The notes below the pieces were generated by a model. It did not search any database. It was not told the origin of the DNA and saw nothing but the letters and a program-made list of their open reading frames with translations. Shown here piece after piece: positions 37,739 to 56,839 of a stretch of 64,000 nucleotides of DNA. The position numbers and the translations under genes are program-made. Source of the stretch: Anaerolineae bacterium (GTDB taxonomy: Bacteria; Chloroflexota; Anaerolineae; DUEN01). How positions within the stretch are numbered: the stretch's first letter is position 1; the number at the start of each line of letters is the position of its first letter. The stretch lies in NCBI GenBank assembly GCA_025060615.1, contig JANXBS010000005.1:124001-188000 (forward strand). The letters run 5' to 3'.

Positions 37739-40700
37739 TTACCGTCCAGTTGTCATCCGCTGAAAGGTCAACCGATAGTTGACGTGGCGCTTTTGCGGCA
37801 ATCCCAGCCCTACCACGCGATCGCTGATCCCGGCTACCTGCACGCTGTACTCCCCCAGCGGGCCATAGAGCGGGAAATTGGCCCCTGCCTCGTCTGTTTG
37901 TGTCTCTGCTGAACCATCGCCCCATAACAGCTGAACACGCTGCCCAATGACGGGACGGCCCTCCTCGTCTAGGAGCCGGATGAACACGTGATGTAGGCCG
38001 CCGGCTTCCTCTGGGCTCTCCCAGCGCGCCTCTATCAGCCGCCAGATGGGCTGACCCGCCACGGGCGAGGCCGACACCAGGCGCACGCCGAGGTCATTTA
38101 ACCGAGGATCCCACACAGGTTGCTGCGGCAATAACGGGGTAGAGGCCGAGGAAGGCATTGGGGTCATAACCACCGGAGATAGAGAGGTAACCGCAGTCGA
38201 GCCATCTGTCCCGGCGCGGGCGATGACGTGACCCTGCTCATCCAGCAGTTGCACATGCCAGCGGTGCTCTGTTGGCCGCTCTGTCCGCCAGGAAGCCGTC
38301 CAGCTTCTCCCCGCGCTTAAATCTACCGGCCCTTGACTCACCAGGACTTCGTCCTGCCATAACTGAAGTCGACCTCGAACGTTTGAAGTTGCTGTCAACC
38401 CGAAAATCACCTTATCAGCTTCCAGGCCCAGCCCTAGGGCCAGCTTGTCCGACGCCCAAACCACCGGGCCGATCCTCCCCGTGGCATACCATCGCTCTGT
38501 CCATCCCACGGCCTGACCGGGCGGCAGCTCAGCATAGGTGTTGAAGTCAGGGGTCACCCCACCCCACAATTCCAGATACCTGCTCTCATCGTCCGTCCAC
38601 AGACGCGGATCGAGCCCAGGCCCAGCGAAGAATTTGGCCCCGCGCGCTACCTGAGCCGGGAAGAGGCGCACTATGCCCATCCCTGTAGTGCCATCGTACA
38701 CCCCCATAAAGTTGCGCTGAGGTATGGTGAAGAAACCCAAGTAGTCCGGCCACTCCGCATATGCGCGCAGATTGCGGCCTCCAGCCATCGGCCATCTCAT
38801 CTGCTCGCCAGCTGGAAAAGCCGGATCGGAGCTGGAATGGACCACCAGCGTATCAGAGGGCCAGACAAACTGTGTATCATGGGAGACCGAGTTACCGCTC
38901 GGAGCCAACATTGCGTTGAGCCAGAATTGATACCGCTGAGGGCTACTGGTCGGGTTCACCAGCCTGGGCGATATGGTGAAGTAAGCGTGAACTGCATCGA
39001 GAGAGACGGCGACCTCGGCACGCAACCCAGTTCGCTCATCGACGCGGGTCAGCGTCACGGCGGCTTGTCGCCCATCAGCGCGAATTTGATAGTCCCATGG
39101 CTGATACTCATGAAAGCCATGTTCCTCGACGGGAAAGGCCCACTCCAGGCCACCCGCTCCGATCCACCAACCGCGATATCCCCAGCGGGTCGGCTTGATT
39201 ACCGGGTTCTGATACAACAACGGTCGCCCAGAGGCTTTATCCATCCATTGGTAAATCCGTCCTCCCAACTCCGGCAGCAAGACTAGCCGGAGGTAACTGT
39301 TCTCCAGGATCACTGCACGGTAGGTTCGCGGCACCGGGGGCCCCAACTGGTTGAAATCCAGCCGCGGATATGGATAGATCGGATCATCGGGCGTTGTCGG
39401 CACCAGGGCCTGTTCATAGGGATAGGTCGGGATCAACAGATATACCTCGCGGACCACAGGAGCTATCGCTGGTGGTGATAGCTGCGCCGAGATCGTAGAA
39501 CCATATGTCGGCGCGGGGGCAACCGCTGGCGAGCTCGGCTGAGGCTTCGGTGTAGGAGGCACGAACACCATCTCCGGCTTCAACTGTGTAGCTGGCGGAG
39601 AAGCCCATGGGCTAGCCGTAGGCGATAGGGCCTCGCTCGGAGACACAGGAAGATAGCAGCGCGTGCGCCCCTGCGCAGCGAGCTCCTTGATCGCTTCTAC
39701 CACTGGACGAGGCCGCCCTCCGACAGGATACCAGGCAGCCGACTCCCATGCAGCGTCACCGCCTCCACCGTCCAGGTTCGCCAACAGCCATGGCATGAAG
39801 GCGAAGTAATATGCCGGTGCCTGGTCTATCATGTACTGGAAAGCGGCACGTGTGCGCTGGGCTACATCGAGCTCGGTCACTCGTGGGTAGCGCGGGTCCT
39901 CCTGGGATCCGACGATTGCGCCACCCTCGGTAGTGATGATGGGCAGCTCCCGGCCTAGCCGTCGGTAGACAATATTGCGGTAAGCTTCGAACTTACGAAA
40001 GCCATTGGAGTCCTCGTCTATTGTGTCGCCGACATAGTAGCCGCCTTGAGAACGCGGCCAACGGGCGATTTGCCGAGCATGATTGATGGCAGCAACCTCG
40101 GCCGCGCTCAGCCCACGCTCGTGGATCTCAACAGGCGTGAGCGGCACGCTCAATCGGTTGACGGGGTCTTCCGGGTAGTCCAAGGGATGGTTAAAGAAAT
40201 AGTTGTGCAAGGGGACCCAGGCTCGATGAAGGGTATCCAATGCCCCCCTCTGTTGCAAGAGGCCAAGGAATTCGTCGAGGAAGCGCATGTCATCGTAGGA
40301 GCCACCAGGGGCCAAAGTCGGCAGCCCTGGATACCCCCCCAGCGCAGCGATTTCCCTGGCTGCAGGGATCCACAGGTCGGCGATCCGAGCAACGCTGATC
40401 GCCTCTCCCGGCCGCCAGCCGCCGGCCTCTCCGGCGATGTTCGGCTCATTGTACAGTTCATAATAGAACACCCCGTGGGCTAGTCCCTCACGCACGATAG
40501 TGGACAGATGCTGATAGGGTTCATTCCATGGCCGGTAGACGCGCAGCACTGGCATGATATCCCGTCGCACAAGCTGATCAATCAGATACGTGTGCTGGAG
40601 CTTGGGCTCGTCAGCCTGGATCAGCTTGATCCAGCGTAGTCCCAAGGCTTCCACCTCGGAGAGTAGGCGATCCACCACATCAGGCGGCTGGCTGAAAAGG

Positions 40701-42133
40701 ACAGGTGGCCAATGAATACCCCAGCCATTATCGCGAGCAGGGCGCGGATATGCACTCAAAGGCAACGGTGCGGTTCCTACAGGGGTAGCTCGCGGCTGAA
40801 CGGCTGCTGTCGGCGCAGTTGGCTGAACGAAGACCAGAGGGGTCGCTACAGCCGGCGGCTGCGCTGGCTGGTTCCAAAGGACAGCCCCAGGCTGAAAGCG
40901 GCGCGCCTGACCGCGCCGCGGATGCGATTTCAGCGCGTCCACCACCGGAAGGTGATCCCCTTCCCGGTTCTTGTACCAGGCCCACGACTCCCAAGTGGGG
41001 TTGAAATGATCCATCGCCCGTTCGGCAAGCAGCCAAGTGGTAAAGGCGAAGTAGTACGGTGGGGCCTCATCTAGCATGTACTCCAAGGCTTGAATGGTCA
41101 TCTCGGCTTGAATGGCTGGAGTTACGCGAGGATATCGCGGATCTTCGCTGGAGCCGACGGTAGCCCCACCTTCGGTGCTGATCAGCGGGATCTCGAATCC
41201 GAAGATCTCGTAAAAGCGGTTCCGATAGGCTAGAAACTGGAGAAAGCATGAGTTGTCTTCGTCAATCGTGCTGCCGACGTAATACCCTCCCTCGGCGCGA
41301 GGCCGTCGGGCGATAGCCCGTGCTCGGTTGATCGCCTCTACCTCTGCCGGCGACAGGCCATACCGGCTGATCTCCTCCGGCCGTAATGGCGTGCCTTTCA
41401 GATTGGCCTCGTCATATGGATAACGTAGAGGATGGTTCAGGAAATAATTGTGAATAGCTCCCCATGATCGGTACAGCACACTGGTGTTGCCAGTGTCCTT
41501 GATTCGGCGCAGAAAGCGGATAAAGAAGCTGTTCTGCCAATTGGGGTCCTTGGTAGACGGCGGGAACATGGAGGGCAAAGAGGGGAAGCCACCCTCTTCT
41601 TGGACTACACGCGCAGCCGGTACCCACATGTCAGCCATACGTTCGGGATCGGGCCGCTCCCCATGGCACCAACCACCGGCTTCCCCTTCCAATTCTGGCT
41701 CATTGTAGAGCTCGTAATAGAAGACACCCTTAGGGCGATAGTGCTGCACCAACCGACGCAGCGAGCCCAGATCTAAGGGTTTATTACATTTCTGGTAAAT
41801 GCGCATCACGGGCATCATGCCGTGAGCTACAAGCTGCTCGATCAAATACTCATTATGCCGGCCCTCAGTGCCATCATTGAGAAACTTGACCCACTTAATG
41901 CCCATCGCCACCATCTCGGCCACGAAGTAATCCACGATCTCGCGCGACTGGCCGTAAATATTCGTGCTCCAGTGGATACCCAGGCCGTTGTCCTGAGGCG
42001 GGCGTGGATATGCGCTTAGGGGCAGCGGCCCCACATCCTGGGCATCGGCCAGCCTAGGCCACGTCCAGCCCGCCACTAGCGTCAACAGCACTAGCAAGCC
42101 GATCAACCTGTATAGCGGATTGAGACGGGGCAT
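37739..42133 (-). CDS. Large secreted protein: two glycosidase-like TIM barrels plus DUF5107-like domain
   Basis: This 1464-residue protein starts with a Sec signal peptide (cleavage near ADA-QD, residue 32). Residues 36-400 and 455-825 are two copies of one domain; each holds PLPLSAYPRP, then YNEP (Glu145, Glu563) and TEGG (Glu321, Glu736), the acid/base and nucleophile pattern of clan-A glycosidases. A Pro/Ser/Thr linker leads to a beta-rich domain like DUF5107 (about 930-1330; NSYLRLVLLPELGGRIYQW) and an Ig-like end. ATG 42133 follows AGAGGTGAAG and lies 67 nt past flgE on the same strand. The substrate is unknown. A third copy of the domain is in the protein at 55541. Confidence 0.75.
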   Translation of the reverse strand: MPRLNPLYRLIGLLVLLTLVAGWTWPRLADAQDVGPLPLSAYPRPPQDNGLGIHWSTNIYGQSREIVDYFVAEMVAMGIKWVKFLNDGTEGRHNEYLIEQLVAHGMMPVMRIYQKCNKPLDLGSLRRLVQHYRPKGVFYYELYNEPELEGEAGGWCHGERPDPERMADMWVPAARVVQEEGGFPSLPSMFPPSTKDPNWQNSFFIRFLRRIKDTGNTSVLYRSWGAIHNYFLNHPLRYPYDEANLKGTPLRPEEISRYGLSPAEVEAINRARAIARRPRAEGGYYVGSTIDEDNSCFLQFLAYRNRFYEIFGFEIPLISTEGGATVGSSEDPRYPRVTPAIQAEMTIQALEYMLDEAPPYYFAFTTWLLAERAMDHFNPTWESWAWYKNREGDHLPVVDALKSHPRRGQARRFQPGAVLWNQPAQPPAVATPLVFVQPTAPTAAVQPRATPVGTAPLPLSAYPRPARDNGWGIHWPPVLFSQPPDVVDRLLSEVEALGLRWIKLIQADEPKLQHTYLIDQLVRRDIMPVLRVYRPWNEPYQHLSTIVREGLAHGVFYYELYNEPNIAGEAGGWRPGEAISVARIADLWIPAAREIAALGGYPGLPTLAPGGSYDDMRFLDEFLGLLQQRGALDTLHRAWVPLHNYFFNHPLDYPEDPVNRLSVPLTPVEIHERGLSAAEVAAINHARQIARWPRSQGGYYVGDTIDEDSNGFRKFEAYRNIVYRRLGRELPIITTEGGAIVGSQEDPRYPRVTELDVAQRTRAAFQYMIDQAPAYYFAFMPWLLANLDGGGGDAAWESAAWYPVGGRPRPVVEAIKELAAQGRTRCYLPVSPSEALSPTASPWASPPATQLKPEMVFVPPTPKPQPSSPAVAPAPTYGSTISAQLSPPAIAPVVREVYLLIPTYPYEQALVPTTPDDPIYPYPRLDFNQLGPPVPRTYRAVILENSYLRLVLLPELGGRIYQWMDKASGRPLLYQNPVIKPTRWGYRGWWIGAGGLEWAFPVEEHGFHEYQPWDYQIRADGRQAAVTLTRVDERTGLRAEVAVSLDAVHAYFTISPRLVNPTSSPQRYQFWLNAMLAPSGNSVSHDTQFVWPSDTLVVHSSSDPAFPAGEQMRWPMAGGRNLRAYAEWPDYLGFFTIPQRNFMGVYDGTTGMGIVRLFPAQVARGAKFFAGPGLDPRLWTDDESRYLELWGGVTPDFNTYAELPPGQAVGWTERWYATGRIGPVVWASDKLALGLGLEADKVIFGLTATSNVRGRLQLWQDEVLVSQGPVDLSAGRSWTASWRTERPTEHRWHVQLLDEQGHVIARAGTDGSTAVTSLSPVVMTPMPSSASTPLLPQQPVWDPRLNDLGVRLVSASPVAGQPIWRLIEARWESPEEAGGLHHVFIRLLDEEGRPVIGQRVQLLWGDGSAETQTDEAGANFPLYGPLGEYSVQVAGISDRVVGLGLPQKRHVNYRLTFQRMTTGR

Positions 42134-42200
42134 CTTCACCTCTGCTAGATGGGTGATAGGTGGCAGAGGGCGATGCCTTCTGCCACCCACAAGGCCGGAA

Positions 42201-46667: not shown

Positions 46668-48479
46668 TTACCCATTGGATGGGCAACTGCTGGTTGGCAG
46701 ATCAGCTATCGGCAAAATGGGACGGCCGTCCACACTGTGCACCCAAACGGTCGAGCTAGTCTCTATGCCGTCAACACTTAGCCAGAAGTACATCCGATTA
46801 TCTGGATTACGAGCCGCGCGCACGTCCAAATTGTTGAAATCCCAGACTATATAGCGGATGCCGTTCTGAACCACCTCTCGCGGCAAGCCAGGGATGCCTC
46901 GACCGCCAGTTCCATCCGTGGCGTCATTGATCGCCCAGTGCAGTCGCACGATTGGCCTGAAACCGGCCGCTGGAAAAGCTTGGCGAGTTCCTGCCGCAAA
47001 CAGGATCGCTGTCAGGTTGGCACGTTCCGCTTCTTGTGCAGGTACGCCCCCGTGCGGCCAGAGGATACTAATCCAAGCGTCTACGCGCGAGGGTACCTCC
47101 TGTACCAGGCCGACCGGCATCGGCTCAACTACGTTCAGCGTCCGCACATCCCGGCCAAGGGACACCACATTGTGAGCGGTTGTCATACCATCTACTGTGG
47201 CGAAGAAATGCATCGGCTCACCCATCTGTCCCAGAATGGAGACGTCCACCCCAGTGAAGTCCCAAACAGGGAAGCGCAGCCCCCTCTCCTCGACCATTCG
47301 CTTCTTGCCAACTGTCAACATGCGCGCCGGCGTGTTTCCTCCCGCTCCCCAGAGGCGGACCGTTGGCTCCCACTCACAGGGGGGCGGCGTCAACGCAGCA
47401 TCGCTGAACAGGTACACTGTAGCGCTGACCTGTTGTGGTCCAGATGGCCATAATGCCTCGATCTTCGCTTGCACTATTGGCGAGGGCAAAGCAGTTGCCA
47501 TAGTAGCTGAGACCGGCGCGGAGGTCGATGTCAGGGCTGGAGGCTCCGAAGAGATAGTCTCAGCTGACGGCTTCGGCGAGGTGGACGAGGGCGTCGGATC
47601 AGAGGTGACGATCGTTTCCTCAGGCACGGACGGAGAAAACGAAGAGGAGGTCGGCATAGGCGTTGCAGCTGAGATCGGCGTTGGCGCTATCACTGAAGCA
47701 AGCGAGGATTTAGGCACCGGCGTCTCTTCGTTGTAGGGCGTCGCCCCGAGGCGTCTTCTGCCGTAGATGAACCTCAAAGAGAGGACATCCTCTTGGGCGA
47801 CCCTCACGGACAAGCTACCGGCCGCATGTGATGGCTTCGGCCATTGGTAGTGCACGGCCAGCCGCGGGCGCTGTGCTACGCTTCGCCACTCCGAACTAGC
47901 CAGATAATACTCTACATCCTCGCCCTCGGCCGTCATCAGCAGGATCATCTCACTAAAGGCAGCCCGCAATTGCTCACGCACAGCATCAGTCACATTCCAG
48001 CGATACCAGCACCCCACTTTGTTCAAGGCCTGTCGGCTGAGCATCCCACTGCGATTCCTTATCTCAAAAGCGTCTAAGCTCTTGCCAGGCTGTCCAACCA
48101 AGGCCATGAGCCAGGCAGCCTCTTCGTCCCATGGCCGCGTGAGCAGAGACACGGCCACGTCTAACGGGGCCGGGGCGCTACGACCTTCCACCCACAACTC
48201 TAAGCTGGCGTTCAAAACTTCCGCCCCCTTTGGCAACCGACTCAGATCGAAACGAAGGAGTACTGCCGCCCCTGTGGCAATGGAAAGCACCGGCTCGGCA
48301 TCATACACTCGGCTCGGATTACGGGCAGTTACATACGTATCGTTTACTGCTTGCTCCATAGGAGGCGCTGCTTGGATGACCAATGTGGAGCTCATCGTTT
48401 CCTGAGCTAGGGCACCGGCCGACCATCCGAGAAACCACAGGAAGGCGAGGAAAGGCCATAGGTATATTTGACCGCTCAC
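46668..48479 (-). CDS. Secreted DNRLRE-like protein with tandem beta domains, coupled to flgB
   Basis: This 603-residue protein has a signal peptide (cleavage near ALA-Q, residue 25) and a DNRLRE-type beta domain (about 40-215; VLLRFDLSRLPKGAEV, W...WNVTDAV). A Ser/Thr/Pro-rich linker (about 250-335) leads to two copies of a beta domain (about 336-450 and 460-590), each with LWP, an I/V-V-R-L line and VWDF-NxLDV or similar. The start codon GTG 48479 overlaps the flgB stop (GTGA), so translation is coupled to flgB. No enzyme motif is seen; binding or adhesion is likely, but not shown. Confidence 0.7.
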   Translation of the reverse strand: MSGQIYLWPFLAFLWFLGWSAGALAQETMSSTLVIQAAPPMEQAVNDTYVTARNPSRVYDAEPVLSIATGAAVLLRFDLSRLPKGAEVLNASLELWVEGRSAPAPLDVAVSLLTRPWDEEAAWLMALVGQPGKSLDAFEIRNRSGMLSRQALNKVGCWYRWNVTDAVREQLRAAFSEMILLMTAEGEDVEYYLASSEWRSVAQRPRLAVHYQWPKPSHAAGSLSVRVAQEDVLSLRFIYGRRRLGATPYNEETPVPKSSLASVIAPTPISAATPMPTSSSFSPSVPEETIVTSDPTPSSTSPKPSAETISSEPPALTSTSAPVSATMATALPSPIVQAKIEALWPSGPQQVSATVYLFSDAALTPPPCEWEPTVRLWGAGGNTPARMLTVGKKRMVEERGLRFPVWDFTGVDVSILGQMGEPMHFFATVDGMTTAHNVVSLGRDVRTLNVVEPMPVGLVQEVPSRVDAWISILWPHGGVPAQEAERANLTAILFAAGTRQAFPAAGFRPIVRLHWAINDATDGTGGRGIPGLPREVVQNGIRYIVWDFNNLDVRAARNPDNRMYFWLSVDGIETSSTVWVHSVDGRPILPIADLPTSSCPSNG

Positions 48480-48898
48480 TTTCGTCCTTCCGTAACGATG
48501 GCCCTCAACAGAGCCAGCTTGCGAGCCAGAATCTGCGTAGAAGCCTGGTAGAGTAAGCTCGTCTCTGTGAGAGAGGCCATCTCTTTCTCCAGGTCTACGT
48601 TGTTGCCGTCGGCGCGCAAAGTCGTGTTCATGCGTGTTCGTACTATTGGCTGGACTTCTAGCGCCGAGGAAGAGTCGACCCGGAAGTGCGCCGGATGGGT
48701 GACTCGGAGCGGCTCGACCTGCCCGCGCTCAGCCTCGAGCGCCCGTTTCAGCTCGGCCTCGAACAGGACCTCAGAAGCCTTAAAACCAGGAGTGTTCAGG
48801 TTGGCCAAGTTGTTGCTCGTCACCTGCTGGCGCAGCGAAAGGGCTGTCAAAGCCCGCTGTAACACTGCTGTGGTTATGTCATCGAAGAACACCCTCAT
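48476..48898 (-). CDS. flgB: Flagellar proximal-rod protein FlgB
   Basis: The 140-residue protein has the FlgB pattern: FDDITTAVLQRALTALSLRQQVTSNNLANLNTPGFKASEVLFEAEL, then the C-terminal NNVDLEKEMASLTETSLLYQAS. ATG 48898 follows GGGAGGGTTAGGC. In most bacteria flgB directly precedes flgC; here it lies 6 kb away, after a lytic transglycosylase gene, with a 2-nt gap. Confidence 0.93.
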   Translation of the reverse strand: MRVFFDDITTAVLQRALTALSLRQQVTSNNLANLNTPGFKASEVLFEAELKRALEAERGQVEPLRVTHPAHFRVDSSSALEVQPIVRTRMNTTLRADGNNVDLEKEMASLTETSLLYQASTQILARKLALLRAIVTEGRK

Positions 48899-48900
48899 GC

Positions 48901-49431
48901 CTAACCCTCCCACTCGCTCCTATGGACAAGCTGTAGCACACGCCGCACGTAAGCCTGCGTCTCCGCATACGGCGGAATGCCGCCGTAGCGATCCACCGCG
49001 CCTGGACCGGCGTTATAGGCCGCCAACGCTAACGATAGCTGGCCGTAGCGATCTAACATACGGCGCAGATAGGCCGTTCCCCCTTCAATGTTCTGAGCCG
49101 GGTCGAAGCTATCTCTCACGCCCAGCGCTGCAGCGGTAGTGTCCATCAACTGCATTAGCCCCTTCGCACCAGCCGCCGACACCGCCATTGGGTCGAAGTT
49201 CGACTCGACCCGGATCACGGCCTTGATCAGGTCCGCAGGCAGATCGTACTGCCGGGCAGCCTTCTCGATCAGGGCATCAAAGCGGGTGGGATCGCTAGCC
49301 GTGAGGGGGTGAAACCTCCCGACCTTTGCACCGCGATCCCGCTCTGCCAGACGCTCAACGATCTGGCGTAAGAGGGCAACTTGCAGGTTAGCGATGATGC
49401 AACCAACCTGATCTACAATCCCGCCCATCAC
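48901..49431 (-). CDS. Flagellar-locus lytic transglycosylase (SLT domain)
   Basis: The 176-residue protein has a lysozyme-like SLT domain (about 45-165) with catalytic Glu76 ([11 protein letters not shown]), then [13 protein letters not shown] and [12 protein letters not shown]. It should cut peptidoglycan so the rod can pass the wall. No Sec signal is seen, which suggests export by the flagellar apparatus or cytoplasmic retention. The start overlaps the fliJ stop by 4 nt. It may replace the muramidase half of FlgJ. Confidence 0.88.
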
Positions 49432-52037: not shown

Positions 52038-53073
52038 GGATATCCTCCTGGCCACCACGGGCCACCACAATTTCCTCGGCTTCCTCCAACCGTCTTACCA
52101 CACTGACGATCCGCTGCTGAGCTTCTTCCACGTTGCGCAAACGTACAGGCCCCATGACGGCCAAGTCCTCCATGAGAAGTTGGGCAGCACGCTTGGAGAG
52201 GTTGCGGAAAATGAGTTGTCGAATCTCATCGCTGGCCCCGCGCAGCGCCATCAACAGGTCTTTCTGGTTCACCTCTTGTAGTACCCGCTGCACCGAGCGA
52301 TCGTCCAGTAGGCGGAGATCCTCGAAGACGAATAACTTAGCTTGGATTTGCTCGTGCAGTTGAGGATCTGACTTAGCCAGCGATTCCATGATTTGCTTCT
52401 CCGTGCTGCGATCTACCTGATTCAACACCTTGGCTAGGAACTCCAGCCCACCGGCCGTGGAGGCGCTCTCAGCGCGTAGAAGCACGGTCGCCAACTTCTT
52501 TTGCAGCCCTTGATCCACCCGCCGCAGCACCTCTGGCGATGTACGATCCATTACGGCGATTCGGATGCACACATCAGTCTGAAGAGCGGGATCCAGATTG
52601 GCCAGGATCTTGGCCGACTGCGCCGGCCGCAAGTGAGAGAGGACCAGCGCGATGGTCTGCGGGTGTTCGTCCTTCAGGAAGTTTGCGATCTGCACTGCGT
52701 CGGCATCAGATAGGAAGCTGAAAAGCCCATCGCGTCGCTCCATACGGAGGCGTTCGATGAATTCTTCGGCCTTTTGCCGGCCCATGGCGCGCTCTAGCAG
52801 CGCGCGCACATAGGTCAATCCTCCGGATTCCGGTAGCTTGGCCATCTGAGCCTGAGCAAACGCCTCCTTCAACACATGGCTTCTAGCCTCTGAGGTGATG
52901 TTCTGCGTGTTAAGAATCGCCATGGTGAGGCGTTCGACGTCGCTCTCCTGAAGCCGTTTCAGAATCGCAGCCGAGAGCTCGGTTCCCAAGCTGATCAACA
53001 GGATCGCGGCTTTGGTGAGTCCGCTCAGCCCAGAAGCGTTACGCGCTTGTGCCTCTAACCTTCCCGCAGCCAT
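52030..53073 (-). CDS. fliG: Flagellar motor switch protein FliG
   Basis: The 347-residue protein has the FliG N, M and C domains; the EHPQTIALVLSHLRPAQSA motif (about 134-152) and the C-terminal torque helix (about 285-300, DEIRQLIFRNLSKRAAQLLMEDL) are present. It binds the MS-ring through FliF and meets MotA. It overlaps fliF by 19 nt. Confidence 0.95.
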   Translation of the reverse strand: MAAGRLEAQARNASGLSGLTKAAILLISLGTELSAAILKRLQESDVERLTMAILNTQNITSEARSHVLKEAFAQAQMAKLPESGGLTYVRALLERAMGRQKAEEFIERLRMERRDGLFSFLSDADAVQIANFLKDEHPQTIALVLSHLRPAQSAKILANLDPALQTDVCIRIAVMDRTSPEVLRRVDQGLQKKLATVLLRAESASTAGGLEFLAKVLNQVDRSTEKQIMESLAKSDPQLHEQIQAKLFVFEDLRLLDDRSVQRVLQEVNQKDLLMALRGASDEIRQLIFRNLSKRAAQLLMEDLAVMGPVRLRNVEEAQQRIVSVVRRLEEAEEIVVARGGQEDILV

Positions 53074-54752
53074 TTTTCGATGACCTCTACGATCGTGTCG
53101 GGATCCTCACGAGCCAGCATCATCATATGCCGCAAGTAGCGGGCTTCCTCGTTTTGAGCCGTGGACAGGGCCGAGAGCTCCACCTCATCGGTTACCTCCT
53201 CTGTCGCGCGCTGGGCTGTCGGCGGCCCTGCTAGCGTAGGGCCCGGCGCCAAGGCAGAGACCGCCTGAGAAGGAGCTAGCTGTCCTTGAGCGGCCTCCAA
53301 CGCCGCGATGGGCACAGCCGTCTGACCGGCTGATAACACAGTCATATACGGGTGCAAACGGCGAACAGAAAGGTCGCGGAAGAGGCCGCGCACGAAGAGC
53401 AGAAGCAACGCCAATCCAATAATAGACGCCAGAGCTTTCACGCCTGCAATGAGCAGCTCCTCCCGCTGAGCGGCCTGGAAGGCCTTTTGTTGCGCCGTGT
53501 AAAAGCTTCGGTCAAATGCTGTGACGGCCAAAGCGATAGTATCGCCGCGGGAAGAGTCAAGTCCCACCGCAGCGGCTACCATCTGCTCAATGCTCCGACG
53601 CTGCTCAGCCGGCACGCTTTGATCCAGCAACACAGCTACCGACATCCGTTTGATGCTGCCAGGCGCCTTGACTAGGTTCTGGACCGTCTTGGACACCTCG
53701 TAATTGTAGAGGGTCTCACGTCGCACATATCCGCCTTCAGCCGTGGCGGTGATCACACCAGGATAGCTAGGAATCTGGGGGGAGTTGGCATCCAAGCCGA
53801 CCACACCTCCTGCCAGGGCTCCCGGCCGTCCCTGATATTCCTCTATCACTCGCGAGCTGCGCAATACGCCCGAGGCTGGCCCACCCTGCGAGTAGGTTTC
53901 GCTGCTAGTCTCCAGGCGATCCCAATCCATTGTGACGCTAACCTGGACGGCGGCCTTGTCTGGTCCCAGGGTCTTGTCTAACAAGCTCTGAAGCCGGTTT
54001 TGCATTTCCGCCTCGTACATGCGCTGAATCTCGATCTGAGTGGCGCTCACCCGCTCAATCCCAGCCCCTTCGGTCTCCTCCGCTTGGCTCCATAGGACCT
54101 CACCCTCCACATCCACGACGGTAATGTTCTTGGGCTTCAGCCCCTCGACGCTGCTGGCCACCAAGTGGGTGATGGCCTCGATTTGCCCCCGGTCCAGACG
54201 GCGCCCGGGTTTGAGCTGAACCAGGACGGATGCACTAGGTTCTTTCTGTTCTTCGAGGAACAGGCTGGGCTCAGGGATGACGAGATGAACGCGGGCCGTC
54301 TGTAGTGGCTCCAGGCTGGCGATGGTGCGGGCCAGCTCTCCTTCCAGAGCGCGTTGGTAGTTCACGCGCTGTAGGAAATCGGTCATACCCAAGGTGCCGA
54401 GCTGCCCACTATCGAAGATCTCGAAGCCGACCGTGCCACCCTTGGGCAGTCCCTGTCGTGCCATCTCCAGCCGCACCTCGTACACCTGGCTGGCAGGGAC
54501 GCGGATCACGCTTCCATTCCCCTCAATCCGATATGGCACGTTGCTCTTCTTCAGCGCCTCTACCACCGCGGCCGCATCCTGTTCGCTCAGTCCGCTAAAA
54601 GCTACAGCGTACTCCGGCGTCTGGGCTAAAATAGTCAGATAGAACAGCAGCGCTAGGCCTCCGATGCCAATTCCGACAGCGGCGATCTGTTGCCAGCGCG
54701 CCAAGCTTTGCCACCAGTCCTGAACCCGCTGCCTCAGCACACCCATGTCCAT
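53055..54752 (-). CDS. fliF: Flagellar MS-ring protein FliF
   Basis: The 565-residue protein has two membrane helices (about 23-43 and 432-452), YscJ-like ring domains between them (PYRIEGNGSVIRVPASQVYEVRLEMARQGLPKGGTVGFEIFD) and a C-terminal FliG-binding tail (about 520-560; MMMLAREDPDTIVEVIEKWL). It is the base of the flagellum in the membrane. Start ATG 54752; ATG 54746 is equally possible. Confidence 0.95.
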   Translation of the reverse strand: MDMGVLRQRVQDWWQSLARWQQIAAVGIGIGGLALLFYLTILAQTPEYAVAFSGLSEQDAAAVVEALKKSNVPYRIEGNGSVIRVPASQVYEVRLEMARQGLPKGGTVGFEIFDSGQLGTLGMTDFLQRVNYQRALEGELARTIASLEPLQTARVHLVIPEPSLFLEEQKEPSASVLVQLKPGRRLDRGQIEAITHLVASSVEGLKPKNITVVDVEGEVLWSQAEETEGAGIERVSATQIEIQRMYEAEMQNRLQSLLDKTLGPDKAAVQVSVTMDWDRLETSSETYSQGGPASGVLRSSRVIEEYQGRPGALAGGVVGLDANSPQIPSYPGVITATAEGGYVRRETLYNYEVSKTVQNLVKAPGSIKRMSVAVLLDQSVPAEQRRSIEQMVAAAVGLDSSRGDTIALAVTAFDRSFYTAQQKAFQAAQREELLIAGVKALASIIGLALLLLFVRGLFRDLSVRRLHPYMTVLSAGQTAVPIAALEAAQGQLAPSQAVSALAPGPTLAGPPTAQRATEEVTDEVELSALSTAQNEEARYLRHMMMLAREDPDTIVEVIEKWLREG

Positions 54753-54761
54753 CCGAACCCG

Positions 54762-55070
54762 CTACACCTGCATCCGCATGATCTCTTGATACGCCTCGAC
54801 CAGCTTGTTTCGCACTTGGAGAGCTAGCTGAAATCCTAAGTTCGCCTTTTCGATGGCGATCATGACGTCGTGTAGATCCACCGGCTTACCGGCCACAAGA
54901 TCGGTGGCAGCCTGGTTGGCCTCCACCTGCAGCCGGTTTAACTCTTCCAGCGCGTCGCGAATCAGGGCACCAAACGAGGGACCTGCCGAAGAGCGAAGCA
55001 TCGAGTTTGCTGTCCTCTCAGCGGAGGATGGAAGGCTCTGTTGAATCTGAGAAATCAGGTCTATCGCCAT
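54762..55070 (-). CDS. fliE: Flagellar MS-ring/rod junction protein FliE
   Basis: The 102-residue protein has the FliE pattern: FGALIRDALEELNRLQVEANQAATDLVAGKPVDLHDVMIAIEKANLGFQLALQVRNKLVEAYQEIMRMQV. It joins FliF to the rod. Gap of 9 nt to fliF and 10 nt from flgC. Confidence 0.94.
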   Translation of the reverse strand: MAIDLISQIQQSLPSSAERTANSMLRSSAGPSFGALIRDALEELNRLQVEANQAATDLVAGKPVDLHDVMIAIEKANLGFQLALQVRNKLVEAYQEIMRMQV

Positions 55071-55080
55071 CGCCTACTCC

Positions 55081-55521
55081 CTACCGTCCGATATCAAGCG
55101 CTCGGAGAGCCATCTGCTTAGCGGTCTGAGCAGCTATCAGATTCGCCTCATAAGCCCGCGCAGCCGACATCATGTCCACCATTTCAGTGACGATATCCAC
55201 ATTTGGATACGTAACGTATCCTTCGGCGTCCGCGTCAGGATGATTCGGGTTATAGACCCGCATGCCGGGCCGCGGGTCTTCCACGATGGCTGCCACTCGC
55301 ACACCCATCTGATCGGGCAACGGGCGGTTGACCTCTTGAGCGCGCCCCAGCACCCTATGGGCCTCTAACGGGACGAAAACAGCCACACGTCGGCGGTAAG
55401 GCTTCCCGTTGACCGCGCGCGTCGTCTGCTGATTGGCGATATTGTTGGCGATCACATCCATGCGCAACCGCTCGGCCGTAAGCGCCGAAGCGCTGATCCG
55501 TAAGGCGGTAAAGGCCCCCAT
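55081..55521 (-). CDS. flgC: Flagellar proximal-rod protein FlgC
   Basis: The 146-residue protein starts MGAFTALRISASALTAERLRMDVIANNIAN, the FlgC N-terminus, and ends with VDIVTEMVDMMSAARAYEANLIAAQTAKQMALRALDI. ATG 55521 has GGAGG 10 nt upstream; in-frame starts at 55527 and 55530 are possible. Instead of flgB, a glycosidase-like gene precedes it. Confidence 0.94.
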   Translation of the reverse strand: MGAFTALRISASALTAERLRMDVIANNIANQQTTRAVNGKPYRRRVAVFVPLEAHRVLGRAQEVNRPLPDQMGVRVAAIVEDPRPGMRVYNPNHPDADAEGYVTYPNVDIVTEMVDMMSAARAYEANLIAAQTAKQMALRALDIGR

Positions 55522-55540
55522 TTCCATCACTCCTCCGAAT

Positions 55541-56839
55541 TTAAATCTCTGCTTGCAGGATCGCCACTAACGGGCTTACCTTGCCATCAACTCGAAACAG
55601 GGCTTGAGACTCCCAAGCAGGATCATGCCCTCCGCCCAGAGCATTGGCAATCACCCAATAGGTATAAGCCAGGTAGTATGGCTCTCGATGCCGCATGTAG
55701 CGATAGGCATCGGCCAGGATGCGGACCTGCTCCTCCTCGCTAAGGTGAGGACCGCAGTAGACACCCCCTTCCGTTCCGATCTGGGGCAGGCTCCGTCCCA
55801 GTTCCTGGCGCAGGATCTCGTCATATCGGCGAACTCGTAGGTAATCGACGCCGTAGTTGTGGACGCTTAGCCAGGCCCGGTTGAGCGCGTCCGTGGCGCC
55901 GCGCGCCTTGATCTGCCGCAAGGCCTCTTGCAGGAAGGTGAGATCATCTACATCCCCCTGCGGGCTGAGTGCGCCAAACCCAGGCAAGCCCCCATTGGCT
56001 GCCACGATCCGGGCGGCCGGCAGCCAGAGGTCGAGATAACGCTTTACATCTGGCATGCGGCCGCCGTTCTCCACCCGTAAGTTCGGCTCGTTGTAGAGCT
56101 GGAAGTAGTGCACGCCTAGGCTGCGATAATGGCGTACCAACGCAGCTAGGTCTCCCTCGATAGGAGCTCCCGCATCGGTGTAGATGCGCATCACGGGCAT
56201 GATGCCGGCCTCGACCAACCGCTTCACGAGGTAATCGTTGGCCCCAATCTCAGTCCCCCGATTTAGAAATGTGACCCAACGAACGCCCATGCGCTGTGCC
56301 TCAGCCACAAAACGGTCCACTACTGCGGGGCTAGAGCTTGTGGTCGGGATCCAGTGTAGGCCGCGCCCGTTATTCCCGGCTGGCTGAGGATACTCAGATA
56401 AGGCCAACGGGCGGTCTGGGTTCATTGGGACAAGCGCTGGATCGTTCATCACAACTGAGGATGCGGGCCCAGAAGCAAGGGATGACGCAGTTAGCCGCGA
56501 AGGCGGCTGGCCCATCACCCCTGCGGCTTCTAGCCGCATCGATTCTGGCTGTTGGACAGTCTGGTAGACGGCCTGGATCGGCCGTCGAGCTAAGCCCAAT
56601 ACGAATGCGGGGATCGTTCCCTTGGCCTCATCGGCCAGATAGCGTAAGCTTTGCCAGCGGTTAGGGACGCCGGGGGGCCGTTCTGCGACCATAGGATGCA
56701 GCGATTCACCGCCAGCCTGGGCTAACGCGTCAGCAAACGATGAGCTGCTAGACAAGCGAGAAGACGTCGCTTGAGAGGGTTCGTCTATAGCTAAAGGGCG
56801 GACCGCTTGCACGACCTGAAAAGACGTCAAGGAAGCCAT
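55541..56839 (-). CDS. Glycosidase-like protein heading the flgC operon, no Sec signal
   Basis: The 432-residue protein has a disordered N-terminal region (1-140) and a TIM-barrel glycosidase-like domain (about 142-430). The domain has PLALSEYPQP, YNEP (Glu251) and TEGG (Glu357), the same motifs as in both barrels of the protein at 37739. No signal peptide or membrane helix is seen; the start (SSSFADALAQAGG near residues 31-44) resembles N-termini of flagellar export substrates such as FlgJ and FliK. Only about 19 nt separate it from flgC. Export by the flagellar machine and a glycan-cutting role are inferences. Confidence 0.75.
   Translation of the reverse strand: MASLTSFQVVQAVRPLAIDEPSQATSSRLSSSSSFADALAQAGGESLHPMVAERPPGVPNRWQSLRYLADEAKGTIPAFVLGLARRPIQAVYQTVQQPESMRLEAAGVMGQPPSRLTASSLASGPASSVVMNDPALVPMNPDRPLALSEYPQPAGNNGRGLHWIPTTSSSPAVVDRFVAEAQRMGVRWVTFLNRGTEIGANDYLVKRLVEAGIMPVMRIYTDAGAPIEGDLAALVRHYRSLGVHYFQLYNEPNLRVENGGRMPDVKRYLDLWLPAARIVAANGGLPGFGALSPQGDVDDLTFLQEALRQIKARGATDALNRAWLSVHNYGVDYLRVRRYDEILRQELGRSLPQIGTEGGVYCGPHLSEEEQVRILADAYRYMRHREPYYLAYTYWVIANALGGGHDPAWESQALFRVDGKVSPLVAILQAEI

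Follow-up and report, generated by a model that had tools for sequence, protein, structure and literature searches.

A predicted clan GH-A glycosidase heads a flagellar basal-body operon in Anaerolineae and is a candidate substrate of the flagellar export gate

FlgJ of the beta- and gammaproteobacteria is both a rod cap and a peptidoglycan hydrolase. Flagellar wall enzymes of the FlgJ and SLT types have been described (PMC8517470), and enzymatic flagellins are also known (PMC5595980). In the Chloroflexota, flagellar genes have been described (PMC10284905; 233 genomes in PMC12488501), and flagella have been observed directly in just one cultivated genus (PMC10284905). The envelope of this phylum is multilayered and monoderm, with additional layers outside the peptidoglycan, and in the case of a relative's archaellum, how the filament gets through the envelope layers has been described as unresolved (PMC13319060). 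Our literature search, conducted outside subscription journals, found no glycosidase described in the flagellar export set. Here, we examined a gene for a 432-aa glycosidase-like protein located in a window of 64,000 nucleotides (the whole stretch of DNA analysed) from an Anaerolineae bacterium. This gene is real, conserved and flagellar. It is a concrete candidate for how the filament crosses the extra envelope layers of Chloroflexota, and it would bring a glycosidase fold into the small group of wall enzymes dedicated to the flagellum.

The 432-aa protein resembles FlgJ in that a glycan-hydrolase domain lies behind an N-terminal part, a Sec signal is absent, the gene is encoded with rod genes and, judging from the sequence, the flagellar export gate is the likely carrier. 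It differs from FlgJ in that it lacks the rod-binding domain PF10135, its N-terminus is disordered and is not a cap, and it has a TIM barrel in place of a glucosaminidase domain. The best reading is that it does the job of FlgJ's enzyme half while being unrelated to FlgJ. With the GH39 beta-xylosidases and PslG (clan GH-A) it shares, in the model, the fold and the glutamates after strands 4 and 7, whereas the identity is 15-20%, none of the 37 members examined matches the Pfam GH39 profile, and the N-terminus is of the flagellar type. Like the flagellar lytic transglycosylases SltF and BB0259, it is a putative flagellum-dedicated wall enzyme encoded by a separate gene; these two have the SLT fold and chemistry, whereas in the window the SLT is a separate gene and the glycosidase is additional to it. 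Like flagellinolysin, it would place an enzyme domain on the flagellar export route, but flagellinolysin is a metallopeptidase, while the 432-aa protein is a predicted glycosidase, is not a flagellin and is encoded beside rod genes.

The genes on which the analysis relies are as follows.
55541-56839, minus strand: glycosidase-like protein, 432 aa, the first gene of the flagellar cluster
55081-55530, minus strand: flgC (TIGR01395, E 1.6e-48)
54762-55070, minus strand: fliE (PF02049, E 2e-31)
53055-54752, minus strand: fliF (PF01514, PF08345)
48901-49431, minus strand: SLT lytic transglycosylase without an evident Sec signal, a candidate second wall enzyme of the operon (PF01464, E 2e-31; position conserved)
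48476-48913, minus strand: flgB, behind the SLT gene (PF00460, E 1e-10)

The 432-aa ORF starts with ATG, and its stop is 19 nt from the flgC start (ATG GGG), with GGAGG in the gap. Thus, the spacing to flgC, the first position in the basal-body operon and the lack of a Sec signal, all claimed in an earlier sequence-only reading, were confirmed. That reading had also put the gene in the place of flgB. This part does not hold: flgB lies in the same cluster, and its PF00460 match rules out a displacement by the glycosidase gene. In the 3′ direction, the order is flgC, fliE, fliF, fliG, fliH, fliI, fliJ, the SLT gene and flgB, followed by a gene for a secreted CBM96 protein, fliK, flgD, flbD and flgE; farther along the cluster, which spans about 46 kb, lie che, mot, fliM, fliN, fliP, fliR, flhB, flhA, flhF, fliA, flgF/G, flgK and flgL (most names past flgB were assigned from the sequence and the gene order, not by profile searches). 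A scan of the coding strand found no sigma-70-type promoter upstream of the 432-aa gene. The rod-binding domain of FlgJ (PF10135) was found neither in the 432-aa protein nor in the whole genome, a control search being positive in 3 of 14 control genomes, and the P-ring protein FlgI was not found in the genome; both absences are expected because the organism is monoderm. The CBM96-matching protein (603 aa, 46668-48479, minus strand), located between flgB and fliK, is an odd neighbour for rod genes.

Within the 432-aa protein, the following features were distinguished (all on the minus strand).
56405-56839: disordered export-type N-terminal region, residues 1-145 (pLDDT mostly 40-55)
56723-56737: FADAL, residues 35-39, putative gate recognition motif of the FxxxL type (predicted helix 35-43)
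55544-56404: predicted (beta/alpha)8 barrel, residues 146-432 (AlphaFold2 pLDDT mostly above 90)
56087-56089: E251, putative acid/base, in YNEP after strand 4
55769-55771: E357, putative nucleophile, in TEGG on strand 7

The AlphaFold2 model, built on an alignment of 37 relatives, bears out the TIM barrel suspected earlier. GH39 ranked first in VIA-align (Z 22.3, rmsd 3.0, 262 residues, 17% identity), ahead of PslG (Z 20.9), GH128 (Z 19.9) and GH1 (Z about 19.5), and Foldseek placed PslG (E 6e-9) together with a GH39 enzyme at the top. In the model, strand 245-248 is followed by N250-E251, and E357 lies within strand 353-359, which is the arrangement of clan GH-A. The YNEP/TEGG pair, noted as intact from the letters of the sequence, is conserved as well: both E251 and E357 are present in 38 of the 39 flagellar-type copies and in all 8 of the other homologues; H327, N328 and W395, residues of the pocket, accompany the pair in the same proportion of the flagellar-type copies. 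The sole exception is L124, in which both catalytic glutamates are lost (DGGN for NEPN and TLDP for TEGG). At the sequence level, searches with the 432-aa protein gave no significant family match in Pfam, NCBIfam or the PDB, its relatives likewise matched no Pfam glycosidase or NCBIfam model significantly, and the Pfam search with the 432-aa protein found no glucosaminidase-type, SLT or flagellin N/C domain; the curated Pfam GH39 profile matched 0 of the 37 members at E 0.05, and one weak GH5 match (E 0.036) was seen. The enzyme is therefore best described as a predicted GH-A-type glycosidase, nearest to GH39 and PslG, that falls in no Pfam or NCBIfam family, and the view that no standard flagellar gene is of this kind agrees with the lack of a match to any named flagellar family. 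Catalysis by the barrel is strongly suggested.

The N-terminal region shows a clear contrast with the barrel: mean column conservation among the flagellar-type copies is 24% in the former and 67% in the latter. Most of residues 1-140 have pLDDT values of about 40-55, in agreement with the disorder proposed earlier for this stretch, and helices are predicted at residues 35-43 and 61-70. F35 and L39 are the only N-terminal columns fully conserved in the 39 flagellar-type copies, 37 of which lie visibly within flagellar clusters, while L071 and L121 end at contig ends. An FxxxL starts at residue 27-45 in all 39 (start codons of the homologues were picked by the analyst, some by eye); in 1000 composition-preserving shuffles, the mean was 4.8 of 39 and the maximum 13. 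The first residues, MASLTSFQVV in the window protein, are variable in other copies. In Salmonella, FlgD docks at FlhB via 36-FLTLL-40, and the corresponding motif of FlgE occupies residues 39-43 (PMC8983047). By comparison with that work, a hydrophobic FxxxL-type pentapeptide is present near the expected place (about residue 36-43), namely FADAL at 35-39. Among the 50 non-overlapping window ORFs of at least 150 aa, only FliK and the 432-aa protein have FxxxL at residues 26-45, and related pentapeptides occur in FliE (FGALI at 33), FlgD (FLRLL at 40) and FlgE (FQEMM at 41). A Sec signal is absent from all 39 flagellar-type copies (maximum 12-residue hydropathy at most 1.98). The likeness of this N-terminus to flagellar export substrates, proposed earlier, was thus strengthened by an invariant FxxxL where FlgD has its gate recognition motif and by a Sec/no-Sec split among the homologues. 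The motif and the lack of a Sec signal strongly suggest that the protein leaves the cell by way of the flagellar type III gate.

The split is clean. Of the homologues encoded away from flagellar clusters, each of the 28 examined has an N-terminal hydrophobic or lipoprotein signal, and none of the 39 flagellar-type copies does; the lowest maximum 12-residue hydropathy among the former is 2.18, and the highest among the latter is 1.98. The last 20 of the 28 were retrieved after the Sec/no-Sec prediction had been made. In the Chloroflexota set, most non-flagellar homologues carry a lipobox, and one flagellated genome (G565) has both a Sec-type and a flagellar-type copy. This argues that the substrate probably lies outside the membrane throughout and that only the route differs. 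The situation amounts to a natural experiment in secretion routing: one and the same catalytic domain is preceded by a lipoprotein signal where the genome lacks flagella and by an FxxxL tag where it has them, and this contrast provides independent support for the gate recognition motif in organisms distant from Salmonella. A Sec-type relative also exists in the window.
37739-42190, minus strand: 1483-aa Sec-type protein with a signal-peptide-like N-terminus, two tandem barrels of the same type and DUF5107, directly behind flgE
In several relatives, similar large proteins are encoded 12-18 kb from the flagellar copy. Riflebacteria (L087-L091, L098) have Sec-type barrel homologues, one with LysM; near these, no counterpart of the rod, hook or basal-body genes of the window was found, the only matches being weak ones to chemotaxis and response-regulator genes. 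In a tree of 51 barrels, the tandem Sec-type domains form one supported group and the lipoproteins another; since the backbone is not resolved, the tree leaves the direction of the Sec/flagellar exchange (tag gained or tag lost) undecided.

The distribution of the gene follows that of flagella. A homologue at E < 1e-100 was found in 22 of the 396 genomes of the class, in all 22 directly 5′ of flgC, which is more than chance adjacency, and the flgC-adjacent order recurs among named genomes across many families. FliF (PF08345, over the cut-off) occurs in 24 of the 396, and 21 of these 24 have the orthologue, compared with 1 of the 372 FliF-negative genomes; in this one, G088, flgC adjoins the orthologue, and the assembly is fragmented and 80% complete. 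Because the genomes are related, the Fisher p of 1e-30 for this co-occurrence, which ignores relatedness, is only a guide. The carriers belong to 11 families. At least four of these (f25, f36, f38, f45) include genomes without FliF, and such genomes, G088 excepted, do not have the flagellar-type gene. Other places were also found: the gene follows SLT-flgB in L067, L072, L081 and L086, and in L075 it precedes motA-motB-fliM-fliN, still within the flagellar cluster. It is absent from three flagellated genomes of the class (G201, G371, G381) and, in the remainder of the phylum, from about 25 of the 35 flagellated genomes examined, so a flagellum does not require this enzyme. Beside flgC, the three class genomes have no substitute enzyme and carry flagellin, FliD-like, FlaG-like and FliS-like genes instead; other flagellated genomes without the gene have a RecO-like or sortase-like ORF there, or nothing. 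The sequence-only reading had named three findings that would speak against it, namely no TIM barrel, catalytic glutamates not conserved, and absence beside flgC in all relatives; all three were looked for, and none was obtained. One source genome, Centralia_MAG_106 (L081/L085), is labelled Proteobacteria, but the genome set assigns this very contig to Chloroflexota, and it is probably a mislabelled member of that phylum.

From the predicted fold, the catalytic pair, the synteny, the co-occurrence, the motif and the lack of a Sec signal, we infer the export, catalysis, substrate and timing as follows. The flagellar type III export gate would accept the protein as one of its early (rod/hook-class) substrates, and the disordered N-terminus may dock at FlhB through the FxxxL formed by residues 35-39. 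The chain would pass unfolded through the growing rod and refold, once across the membrane, into a clan GH-A barrel, which would hydrolyse a beta-glycosidic bond in an envelope glycan, either peptidoglycan or a polysaccharide linked to it. Working beside the SLT lytic transglycosylase of the operon, it would let the rod and hook cross the multilayered monoderm envelope. We somewhat favour this early substrate that cuts envelope glycan, and opening the envelope for the rod and hook is the likeliest single role, held with modest confidence. It suggests that a growing flagellum may ship its own glycan cutter so as to penetrate an unusual cell wall. We lean slightly against a wider statement, in which these genes form an undescribed flagellar family of GH-A glycosidases, assigned to no known glycosidase family, which switch between Sec/lipoprotein secretion and the flagellar gate when the N-terminus is exchanged, for crossing peptidoglycan and a special polysaccharide layer of Chloroflexota.

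Clues to the substrate come from fusions. An NlpC/P60 peptidoglycan-peptidase domain lies between the export region and the barrel in L081/L118 (E 7e-25; L081 9245-10897) and behind the barrel in L073/L117 (E 6e-27; L073 853-2604), with Cys and His present in these domains; since they are on opposite sides of the barrel, the two fusions are probably separate in origin. Together with the LysM of the Riflebacteria homologue, they point to the cell wall. To our knowledge, GH-A enzymes are not usual peptidoglycan hydrolases, which counts against the favoured reading, as does the SLT enzyme of the operon, since it could itself open the peptidoglycan. As the operon already holds this SLT, we conjecture that the glycosidase cuts what the SLT cannot, such as a polysaccharide attached to peptidoglycan.

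The same clues bear on an unlikely rival, the first among several, in which the enzyme is exported by the flagellar apparatus but works extracellularly; its targets would be secreted polysaccharide, the matrix of a biofilm or food glycans, much as Psl is the target of PslG. PslG is the best Foldseek match, the cluster also encodes the Sec-type tandem-barrel protein and the CBM96-bearing secreted protein, and filaments with enzyme domains exist (flagellinolysin, PMC5595980); however, the gene lies among the proximal rod genes (flgC, fliE, flgB), not among filament genes, the protein has no flagellin domains, and the two NlpC/P60 fusions and the LysM homologue indicate the cell wall. It is improbable that the exported enzyme trims the glycans carried by the flagellum or by a glycoprotein of an S-layer or outer proteinaceous layer: the additional layers outside the peptidoglycan (PMC13319060) would offer such a target, but no linked glycosylation genes were identified among the ORFs read around the gene, and the NlpC/P60 fusions point elsewhere. 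A cytoplasmic glycosidase kept with the operon for regulation would suit the lack of a Sec signal, and PslG is reported to have an intracellular role in signalling (PMC9075953), but this is very improbable, as it leaves the invariant FxxxL without a role and conflicts with the export signals of all 28 homologues outside flagellar clusters. Equally improbable is a mainly structural rod cap or scaffold with a relic barrel, which L124 and the lack of a FlgJ rod-binding domain in the genome would favour but the retention of the catalytic and pocket residues in 38 of the 39 copies opposes.

The L124 copy (1345-2715) retains its position in a flagellar cluster and its FxxxL, and may be a pseudo-enzyme. 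In L067 and L072, the N-terminus of the SLT encoded upstream of flgB is longer and contains FAEVL or FSDML; this SLT, too, may therefore use a gate recognition motif.
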